Origin: Acidobacteriota bacterium
GTDB lineage: Bacteria; Acidobacteriota; Thermoanaerobaculia; Multivoradales; Multivoraceae
Assembly: GCA_028875725.1 (NCBI GenBank)
Contig: JAPPCR010000006.1
Coordinates: 937,786-1,001,785, forward strand
Direction: 5' to 3'
Length of the DNA stretch: 64,000 bases
Shown here: in pieces, positions 5,829 to 8,733 of the stretch
Layout of the letters: each line of letters opens with the position of its first letter
Position numbering within the stretch: the stretch's first letter is position 1
Made by a program: the position numbers and the translations under genes
Notes under the pieces: model-generated
What the model was told of the DNA's origin: nothing
Databases searched by the model: none
The model's input: only the letters and a program-made list of their open reading frames with translations

Positions 5829-6326
5829 TCAGTCCTCCCTGCCTGGGGTGTTGGGTCGTGTCTCCCGGTCGCTTCCCGGCGCCGGCCGGAAGCGCAGGGC
5901 GACGCCGTTGTTGCAGTAGCGGAGGCCGGTTGGCGCCGGCCCGTCGCTGAAGACGTGGCCCTGGTGCCCGCCGCAGCGGGAGCAGTGGTACTCGGTTCGG
6001 GGAACGATCAGCTTGAAGTCCCGCTTCGTGTCGACGGCGCCGGCGATGGGCTCGAAGAAACTGGGCCAGCCCGTGCCGCTCTCGAACTTCGCATCCGACC
6101 GGAACAACTCGGCGCCGCAGCCGGCGCAGAGGAAGACACCGCTTCGGCGCTCCCGGTTGAGCGTCGAAGTGAAGGGGCGTTCGGTTGCCTCCCGCCGCAG
6201 GACACGGAACTCGTCGTGGCCGAGTCTTGCCCGCCACTCGGATTCCGGGAGGTCGAGCCGGTCGTTGTTCTCCATGTAGGGGGCGCCCGAATCGGGCGCC
6301 GGCGCTCGGCGATCCTCGGTCGTCAT
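5829..6326 (-). CDS. msrB: Peptide-methionine (R)-S-oxide reductase MsrB
   Basis: Reduces methionine-R-sulfoxide in proteins back to methionine. The 165-residue protein has the four zinc cysteines as two CxxC pairs (Cys67/Cys70 in CAGCG and Cys115/Cys118 in CSRCGG), the SGTGWPSF block, HQGHVFSDGP and the catalytic Cys138 in RYCNNGVALRF. The active residue is Cys, not selenocysteine. An alternative start at Met18 would give a more typical length. It lies upstream of the esterase gene in one operon and is divergent from the selenoprotein gene, with only 27 bases between start codons. No signal peptide is visible, so it is probably cytoplasmic. Confidence 0.95.
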   Translation of the reverse strand: MTTEDRRAPAPDSGAPYMENNDRLDLPESEWRARLGHDEFRVLRREATERPFTSTLNRERRSGVFLCAGCGAELFRSDAKFESGTGWPSFFEPIAGAVDTKRDFKLIVPRTEYHCSRCGGHQGHVFSDGPAPTGLRYCNNGVALRFRPAPGSDRETRPNTPGRED

Positions 6327-6353
6327 GCAGCGGGCATCCTATCTTGGGTCAGA

Positions 6354-7259
6354 ATGGACGCCATGACGACACGACGACCGCCGGTGGACCACATCGTTCG
6401 TACGCGCGACCTCTACTCGAGCCTGGGCCACGATCCCTATCGATGGGTGCGCAACGATGGCTCACCTCCGTGGACCGAGCTCACGAAACCCCTCCCGGAG
6501 TGTCGAGTGGGGCTGGTTGGCTCCGGTGGCGTGTACCGCGCGGGGCAGGTCGCCTTCCATCATCGGGACGACATCTCGCTGCGTGTGATCGATACGTCGG
6601 TTCCCGTCTCGGAACTGCGAACGAGCCACTTCGCCTACGACCAGACCGATGCGCGTATCGACCCGAACGTCGTCTTCCCGGTCGACACGCTGCACGCCCT
6701 CGTGGCCGAGGGCGTGATCGGTGAACTGTCGCCGCGGGCCTACGCCTTCATGGGGGGGATCTACTCGGCCCGCCGCGTTCGGGAGGTGGTGGCGCCGGAG
6801 ATCAGCCGCCGTCTCGCGGAGGATCAGGTCGACTTGGCCTTGCTGGTCCCCGTGTGACCGGTCTGCCATCAGTCCGTGGGACTGATTGCCCGTCGGGTTG
6901 AGGCGGATGGCATTCCGACGACGTCGCTGACCTCCGCGCTCTCGATCACCCGCTCGGTCGATCCTCCGCGCGCCGTCTTCCTCGACTACCCCCTTGGCCA
7001 TACCGCGGGCAAGGCGAAGGACCCGGAACTGCAGCGCGAGATCGTCGCCGCCGCGCTCGCGGCTGTGGACGAGCTCGAGCGCCCGGGCGCGGTGAAGATG
7101 CTGCCGTACCACTGGTCCCGCGACGACGACTGGAAGCGCGAGACGATGCTTGGCGGCGACACCCGGAGCCATCGCTCGAGGAGCGCGGAGTACCAGTGCG
7201 AAGCTGACCGGGCGCTCGCGGCAGCCGCCGGGGACTGTCCGACCTGCGTCTTTCTGTGA
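6354..7259 (+). CDS. Selenoprotein, GrdB/PrdB-like (glycine/betaine/D-proline reductase selenoprotein B family), UGA recoded
   Basis: One 301-residue protein if the in-frame TGA at 6855-6857 is read as selenocysteine (Sec168). Before the TGA the frame encodes family-typical blocks: DHIVRTRDLYSSLGHDPYRW, GLVGSGGVY, RTSHFAYDQTDARIDPNVVF, AYAFMGGIYSARRVRE and LALLVPV. After it the same frame continues PVCHQSVGLIAR, AVFLDYPLGHTAGKA and ends GDCPTCVFL. The Sec therefore sits in a U-x-x-C redox motif (Sec168, Cys171), with a second CxxC at the C-terminus. A SECIS-type hairpin follows the TGA. No GrdA, GrdC or PrdA partner is nearby, so the substrate is unknown; a stand-alone reductase role is inference. 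ATG 6354 or 6363 could start translation; neither has a strong ribosome site. A gene finder would split this gene at the TGA. Confidence 0.9.
6865..6889 (+). promoter_or_regulatory. Bacterial SECIS element for selenocysteine insertion
   Basis: Directly after the in-frame TGA (6855-6857) lies a hairpin with a perfect 8-bp upper stem, ATCAGTCC (6868-6875) with GGACTGAT (6879-6886), closed by the triloop GTG. Two further pairs lie below one C-U mismatch (6865-6866 with 6888-6889). The loop begins with G and starts 18 bases after the TGA; published bacterial SECIS models want a G in the first loop positions and a UGA-to-loop distance of about 16-37 bases. The element lies inside the coding region, as usual for SelB-dependent insertion in bacteria. 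Confidence 0.82.
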
Positions 7260-7262
7260 GGT

Positions 7263-7301
7263 GGCGCCGGGCAGTGCAACACGCTTGCACCACCCGGCGC
7301 C
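7263..7301 (+). terminator. Long GC-rich hairpin just after the selenoprotein stop
   Basis: Four bases past the stop codon is a near-perfect stem: 9 bp GGCGCCGGG/CCCGGCGCC (7263-7271 with 7293-7301), a symmetric CA/CA internal loop, then 6 bp GTGCAA/TTGCAC around the loop CACGC. There is no T-run right behind it; the nearest is TTTT at 7324-7327. It could stop transcription or protect the mRNA 3' end. The rest of 7302-7471 holds no gene I can support. Confidence 0.5.
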
Positions 7302-7471
7302 GAACGGGTCCGTGCCTTGCCCCTTTTGGGCGCGAACCCATTCATATCTACGAAGGGAAACCGCCGGGGTTCGACCCGGATTCCAGATTCTCGCCGCAGG
7401 GGGGAGGCCAGTGACCTGACCTCCGTCTGACGGGAATCTGACCGGCGCCCCTCAGCGCTCCTGCCAGGTCC

Positions 7472-7816
7472 TCAGAACGGCTTGTACAGCGAAAGGTACG
7501 CGGCGACCGCTGCCAGCAGCGGCAGGATGACGACCAGGGGCTTGGCCAGGGCCTGGCGGCGATACGGCAGCGTGAGGGCGGCTCCGAAGCACAACCAGAT
7601 GAGCAGCTTCGCCCAGGCCCAACCGGGCAGGCTGCCGCCGAGCATGCCGAAGCCGGCCACGATGCTCAGGATCAGCCCGACTCCGTGCATGGCGGCAAGC
7701 AGACCGCGCAGTTGGTTGTCCTCCCTGCGGCCGCCGTTCGCGGCATGCACCGCGACGCCGCCGGCCGCGGCAAGAACCATTACCGCTCCCAGCACGTGCA
7801 GGAGCTTGTAGACCAT
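7472..7816 (-). CDS. Small four-helix integral membrane protein (SirB/DUF2269-like)
   Basis: A 114-residue, strongly hydrophobic protein with four probable membrane segments (about residues 5-22, 42-62, 68-84 and 92-110). The first helix starts with [10 protein letters not shown], a pattern seen in SirB-like and DUF2269-like small membrane proteins in which a His lies in helix 1, and a second His lies in [10 protein letters not shown] cannot assign a function; the His positions would allow haem or metal contact but this is speculation. I prefer ATG at 7816, which has GAGAG 8 bases upstream, over GTG at 7825. It stands alone, divergent from the inositol oxygenase gene. Confidence 0.75.
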
Positions 7817-7881
7817 GTAGGGCACTCTCGGGTCGGATCCTCCCCATGTTGGTGGGGCGTCGGCCTGTTAGCGTATCGCCA

Positions 7882-8733
7882 ATGGAGCCGCTTGAGCGAC
7901 TCGACGACTGGGACGACTTCGTTGCCGAGCTCTATCCGACGCCGGTGGAGTCGGGCGGCAAGCGGCGGGAGGACTACCGGGACTTCGAGGCGCCTCCGCG
8001 GGACACCGTGCGCGAGTTCTACCGGCTGAACCACCGTCACCAGACCTGGGAGTTCGTCCAGTACAAGAAGGCGGAGTACCTCACACTCGACCGCGCTGAG
8101 CTGTCGGCCTGGGAGGCGCTGGAGTTTCTGAACACGCTGGTCGACGACTCGGATCCGGATCTGGACCTCTCGCAGCTCGATCACCTGCTGCAGACGGCCG
8201 AGGCGATCCGGGCCGACGGACACCCCGACTGGTTCGTGCTGGCCGGACTCGTACACGACCTGGGCAAGGTCCTTTGCCTGTGGGGCGAACCGCAGTGGGC
8301 CGTCGTCGGCGACACCTTCCCGGTCGGCTGCGCGTTCTCGGACCGGATCGTCTATCCGGAGCTGTTCGAGGGCAACCCGGACACGGCGCATTCGACCTAC
8401 TCGACGCCGCTCGGAGTGTACGAACCGGGCTGCGGCCTGGACCAGGTTCACCTGTCCTGGGGTCACGACGAGTACCTCTACCAGGTGCTCAACGACTACC
8501 TGCCGGAGCAGGCCCTCTACATGATCCGCTACCACTCGTTCTACGCGTGCCACCGCGAAGGCGCGTACCGGGAGCTGATGAACGACCGCGACCGCGAGAT
8601 GTTCGCCTGGGTCAGGCTGTTCAACGGCTACGACCTGTACTCCAAGAGCGACCGTCCGCCGGACGCCGCCGAGCTGCGGCCGTACTACCAGGGGCTGATC
8701 GACAAGTACCTGCCGGCGCAGTTGAATCTGTAG
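7882..8733 (+). CDS. Inositol oxygenase (myo-inositol to D-glucuronate), animal-like
   Basis: Di-iron oxygenase converting myo-inositol and O2 to D-glucuronate. The 283-residue protein aligns over its whole length with animal MIOX as I remember it, with shared blocks [23 protein letters not shown] and [13 protein letters not shown]. The six iron ligands of mouse MIOX have equivalents here: His101 ([12 protein letters not shown]), His125 and Asp126 (HDLGK), His195 (WGHDEY), His218 (YHSF) and Asp251 (NGYDLY). Length also matches (mouse 285). Start ATG 7882 is chosen by this alignment; an upstream ATG at 7846 adds unconserved residues. It converges on the YfcC-type carrier gene with a 9-base gap. 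The sugar importer 4 kb away may supply its substrate (inference). Confidence 0.94.

Follow-up and report, generated by a model that had tools for sequence, protein, structure and literature searches.

The reading frame from 6354 to 7259 on the forward strand of the window (the whole 64,000-nucleotide stretch of Acidobacteriota DNA that was analysed) contains a single internal TGA, at 6855-6857, with a hairpin immediately downstream. The locus therefore raises the question of whether the UGA is decoded as selenocysteine (Sec) under the direction of a bacterial SECIS, as the initial annotation proposed, or whether the codon and its hairpin have another explanation.

The gene and its in-frame UGA

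The gene opens with ATG 6354 or ATG 6363 and closes with the TGA at 7257-7259. When the internal TGA is translated as Sec (U), the product has 301 amino acids, with Sec at residue 168 in the motif VPV-U-PVC, and this translation, the PF07355 and TIGR04483 models and the in-frame relatives place it in the PrdB/GrdB family. The PF07355 GRDB domain scores 41.3 bits, above the gathering cut-off of 22, and the frame continues beyond the TGA; the hairpin is thus located inside coding sequence that fits the protein family, as had been claimed from the letters alone. The terminal TGA is read as a stop, the gene end at this codon being common to all 21 genus orthologues; in the next homologue, L065, the stop is TAG, 137 codons past Sec versus 134. 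The protein terminates in CPTCVFL, whose CPTC (residues 295-298, 7236-7247 of the forward strand) matches a C-terminal CxxC present in 22 of the 22 closest homologues (L044-L065) and in 22 of the 98 UGA homologues with a stop in hand. An annotation closing the gene at 6857, or opening a second gene at 6876, would be wrong. Directly past the terminal TGA, a long stem of about -30 kcal/mol occupies 7263-7301 of the window; since neither of the first two loop positions is a G, this stem would more likely serve two convergent genes as a terminator than act as a SECIS.

The in-frame search yielded matches in 32 of 60 relatives, in 58 of 148 class-level genomes and in 101 of 396 genomes of the phylum sample, and the Sec codon was mapped in 161 of 162 Acidobacteriota loci. 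Of the 161 homologues, 112 have TGA at this position, among them those of all 21 genomes of the genus, while the others encode Cys (17), Ser (27) or Asp/Glu (5). The counts leave aside L125 (a duplicate of L081), the unmapped L114 and small fragments (G048, G035, G267:C174, G361:C221 and two G216 pieces). The 27 Ser-form loci, among L168-L204 (family code f36), constitute one Acidobacteriota clade, which has lost the hairpin; their motif is ASRLCHQ, with the second Cys kept. One locus, L150 (G344:C91), reads UPIUHQ, with two TGA codons three apart and a possible UxxU motif, and was left out of the C-terminal CxxC counts and of the comparison of Sec-UGA with terminal UGA given below.

Geometry and stability of the hairpin

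Bacterial SECIS elements are located in the coding region directly 3' of the UGA, according to the available text of PMC13188914, from which the following rules were coded: a loop of 3-9 nt with a G in the first two places, at 16-37 nt from the UGA, a stem of at least 4 and an energy of -7.5 kcal/mol or lower. The hairpin, at 6868-6886 of the forward strand, has an 8-bp stem formed by the arms ATCAGTCC (6868-6875) and GGACTGAT (6879-6886), closed by the loop GTG (GUG in the RNA; 6876-6878); the stem starts 10 nt past the TGA and the UGA-to-loop distance is 18 nt. Direct reading of the letters agrees exactly with the perfect stem, triloop and spacing initially described. A repeat finder extends the arms to 6865-6875/6879-6889, which are 91% complementary with 3 nt between them; this extended hairpin (6865-6889, forward strand) adds to the 8-bp stem a mismatch, 6867/6887, and two more pairs (10 bp with one mismatch), and has an energy of -12.4 kcal/mol by our own scoring routine. 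It follows the SECIS model, as far as that is set out in the available text of PMC13188914, in position, 3-nt loop, 8-bp stem, distance of 18 nt, energy below -7.5 kcal/mol and a loop opening with G and then U; nothing essential differs, the present loop being among the shortest allowed, and the claimed fit to the published constraints holds in spacing, loop, stem and energy. The hairpin itself encodes codons +4 to +10, HQSVGLI. A search of Rfam gave nothing near cut-off at the hairpin, and only six weak matches to unrelated families in 6300-7400.

RNA folding upheld the structure in part. RNAfold forms the hairpin in stretches of 40 nt (-15.9 kcal/mol, z -2.07, equalled by 5 of 200 shuffles), 51 nt (z -1.39, 21 of 200) and 71 nt (z -1.48, 14 of 200), but in a 56-nt stretch, 6855-6910, a different and longer fold of -27.7 kcal/mol is preferred.

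Taken alone, the hairpin is weak evidence, being only mildly beyond chance in this GC-rich window. A hairpin satisfying the rules as coded follows 258 of the 1357 TGAs on both strands, and in 57 of the 1357, this one included, the hairpin equals or exceeds the present one in stability; the window contains 7 perfect 8-bp stems closed by a 3-nt loop, versus 1-6 in ten dinucleotide shuffles, and an equally stable hairpin arose in 102 of 3000 synonymous redraws with the amino acids fixed. The initial argument that a chance stop mutation would lack such a structure is accordingly a weak one, because about one fifth of TGAs in this GC-rich DNA pass the same rules; for the same reason hairpin statistics were rejected as stand-alone proof. 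Hairpins of this kind are common enough in the window that proof must come from the homologues.

Selenocysteine machinery

The genome encodes the complete set of tRNA-Sec (74.1 bits), SelA (443 bits), SelD (253 bits) and SelB (319 bits, or 350 with neighbours), the last with SelB-wing_2 and SelB-wing_3 domains. In the phylum sample, by hand count, selA was found in 62 of 64 UGA-form genomes versus 276 of 396 overall; the two UGA-form genomes with no selA match, G243 and G350, are both fragmented drafts. A strong selA match was also counted by hand in 23 of the 27 Ser-form genomes.

These data bear on the best surviving alternative, i.e. that the hairpin drives plain stop-codon readthrough with a near-cognate tRNA instead of Sec insertion. 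Downstream RNA structures can raise stop-codon readthrough in general; however, the complete Sec gene set of this genome, the presence of selA in nearly all genomes with the UGA form, and a Roseomonas relative (L210, on plasmid p546-2) with Cys at the Sec place (CPVCHQ, giving the common pattern U/C-P-V-C) all argue against this explanation, which is very improbable. The Roseomonas Cys-form gene adjoins selO, which is redox-linked.

Association of the hairpin with the UGA

The rules given above are satisfied by 97 of the 112 UGA homologues versus 9 of the 49 with Cys, Ser, Asp or Glu (Cys 3/17, Ser 6/27, Asp/Glu 0/5), whereas synonymous redraws of the UGA homologues pass at a mean rate of 0.203. 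Stem conservation in homologues having UGA at the same codon, on which the initial annotation had staked its claim, is thus observed. Of the 15 UGA homologues that fail the rules as coded, some belong to a GGUPxVCHR subgroup, some miss the energy threshold narrowly (-6.7 to -7.4 kcal/mol) and a few are of other kinds. A comparison inside single genes was provided by 60 that contain a terminal UGA besides the Sec-UGA: the rules hold after the Sec-UGA in 53 and after the terminal one in 19, the discordant genes being 36 versus 2 in favour of the Sec-UGA. By these counts, and by the covariation described below, the structure goes far beyond chance and is kept with the UGA and lost without it.

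Covariation and silent sites

Covariation was analysed in an ungapped alignment of 64 UGA rows at class level, 61 of them distinct, phylum rows not being included. Stem cells are paired in 93.4% of cases, versus 77.8% after shuffling and 18-47% in slid registers, and double-changed cells number 83 versus 28.8 in shuffles, none of 500 being as high; in the same alignment, no excess over shuffles was seen in how many pairs carry a double change (5 versus 4.6) or in how many pair types occur (11 versus 10.9). RNAalifold, unaided, found the inner six pairs, joining columns 15-20 with 26-31. Pair 15-31 is U-A in 34 rows and C-G in 22, pair 17-29 is A-U in 44, G-C in 11 and G-U in 6, pair 18-28 is mostly G-C (48) or C-G (9), and pair 19-27 is A-U in 24, U-A in 23, G-C in 12 and U-G in 1. 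The last pair is the telling one, because base 27 occupies the third, silent position of a Gly codon and has its partner in codon +6. The stem covariation that the initial annotation had proposed to look for in homologues was found, with compensatory and codon-silent changes.

The silent base also speaks to the second alternative, namely that the hairpin simply results from conservation of the peptide HQ(S/T)VGL and has no RNA role. The pass rate of the synonymous redraws indicates that the peptide itself favours a hairpin; however, the silent Gly third base is paired in 84 of 85 ungapped UGA homologues, 82 of them by Watson-Crick pairs and 2 by G-U, when the Gly codon usage of these genes predicts only 18.2 Watson-Crick pairs of 85, whereas pairing is seen in 2 of 20 Ser homologues (4.4 expected), whose peptide, SRLCHQTLG, is almost identical. 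These column counts omit 7 of the 112 UGA rows, which have a one-codon shift or no second Cys, and 14 of the 17 Cys rows. In the genus, moreover, stem codons with an invariant amino acid are more uniform than those elsewhere, with a mean of 1.0 of 21 sequences deviating versus 4.2, the TSHFAYD stretch being equally uniform. An origin of the hairpin from the peptide alone is, on this evidence, even less probable than plain readthrough.

The relatedness of the homologues limits the covariation evidence. On a tree of 157 rows (4 of the 161 were too short), a minimum of 7 changes is required at base 19 and of 10 at base 27, but fully independent covarying pairs are 2 on the starred branches and 3 to 5 on all branches; nearly all are in the expected direction and none is opposed, a number too small for a sign test. 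A covariance model of the hairpin recovers from the genome, at E below 0.2, only its two PrdB-like genes, both of which were in the training set.

The least probable alternative, in which a nonsense mutation in a gene that once had Cys, or a sequencing error, produced the UGA and the hairpin arose by chance, can appeal to the one fifth of window TGAs followed by such a hairpin and to the 102 synonymous redraws as good as the native sequence, but it is contradicted by TGA in 112 of 161 homologues and throughout the genus, by a frame intact on both sides and by the co-occurrence of hairpin and UGA.

Homologue conservation, covariation and the Sec genes of the genome thus support the proposal of a SECIS-type element for this UGA, and we assign a probability of about 0.94 to the reading in which 6868-6886 is a bacterial SECIS, SelB drives Sec insertion at UGA 6855 and the product is a 301-residue UxxC selenoenzyme of the PrdB/GrdB family. 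By analogy with the known bacterial system, SelB carrying Sec-tRNA and GTP would hold the mRNA hairpin through its winged-helix domains and, with the ribosome at UGA 6855, would bring Sec ahead of the release factor; translation would then run through the hairpin codons to the terminal UGA at 7257, which lacks a conserved hairpin. The locus represents a clean comparative SECIS case from sequence alone, combining silent covariation, Cys and Ser forms as natural controls, and the gene's own stop UGA.

Relation to known PrdB and GrdB proteins

Since PrdB proteins with UxxC and a predicted SECIS have already been reported, the gene is a further, well-supported member of a known group of PrdB/GrdB-family selenoproteins. 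The available text of two environmental surveys counts them among the commonest selenoproteins, with 42 genes in the Sargasso Sea (PMC1088965) and 235 in GOS (PMC2398784), and a 2006 count put the selenoprotein families of Acidobacteria at three (available part of PMC1794560). The present gene shares with the Sargasso Sea and GOS family pfam07355, UxxC and a predicted SECIS; it differs in that those were environmental sequences, whereas here whole genomes and orthologues from one genus were compared, and in its C-terminal CxxC, which is not described in the available portions of those reports. Among the matches listed in a search of the open-licence literature, none dealt with this gene or with silent covariation in bacterial SECIS elements.

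Because its TIGR04483 (D-proline reductase PrdB) score of 169.3 bits is below the cut-off of 300 and no match to PF09338, the PrdA partner, was found in the draft genome, the protein is classified from sequence as PrdB-like and, by score, outside the D-proline reductase PrdB proteins. Terrisporobacter PrdB, used as positive control, scores 424.7 bits on TIGR04483. This protein resembles the present one in UxxC (there UGTC), in the in-frame TGA and in sequence (36% identity over 72% of the query), but it differs in its TIGR04483 score, and prdA is near prdB in Terrisporobacter, whereas PF09338 had no match in the genome of the window (G000, a 98% complete draft), nor in any of 14 control genomes; the Terrisporobacter record with prdA was matched, as a positive control. 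GrdB of glycine reductase shares the PF07355 domain and a UxxC-type Sec motif (available text of PMC13188914); the present protein is shorter and is under the cut-offs of TIGR01918 (61.0 bits versus 65.45) and TIGR01917 (57.7 versus 602.2). The family emerges as a widespread PrdB-like selenoprotein without PrdA.

Structure, neighbourhood and possible function

An AlphaFold2 model, built from an alignment of 95 sequences (the window protein and 94 of 135 eligible homologues), has a pLDDT of 93.5 and a pTM of 0.93; in it a strand leads to Sec 168, directly followed by helix 169-184. Many CxxC-type redox sites are likewise placed where a strand gives way to a helix. Foldseek returned no PDB match to the model at E of 0.001 or lower, and the best VIA-align hit, microcystinase C (154 residues, rmsd 4.0), has a Z of 8.1, a level common without kinship; a sequence search of solved structures yielded no more than one marginal match and a match over 31 residues to a designed protein.

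Upstream, at a distance of 27 bp, is a divergent msrB gene (5829-6326, reverse strand; PF01641 150.4 bits, TIGR00357 142.1 bits, over cut-off); the two genes are close to each other in all 21 loci of the genus. From its UxxC motif, its CxxC at the C-terminus and the neighbouring msrB, the protein is likely to have a thiol/selenol redox role, perhaps as a stand-alone enzyme and perhaps using the C-terminal CPTC, a possible redox partner of the UxxC site. More speculatively, and with the odds against it, the protein could be a PrdA-independent, stand-alone selenoenzyme whose UxxC is recycled by its own CPTC and which partners MsrB in the repair of oxidised thiols or methionine rather than serving Stickland fermentation; the SECIS would then be inside a conserved active-site helix, with RNA and protein needs shaping the same codons.

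Other conserved neighbours, besides msrB, are a small membrane-like protein (7472-7825), present in 21 of 21 genus loci, and a myo-inositol oxygenase (7846-8733), present in 20 of 21. A second PrdB-like UxxC gene with an in-frame TGA is found in the same genome (L096, G000:C23:567162-567797); its hairpin, GCGCC-GTG-GGCGC, differs in sequence from the one described here.
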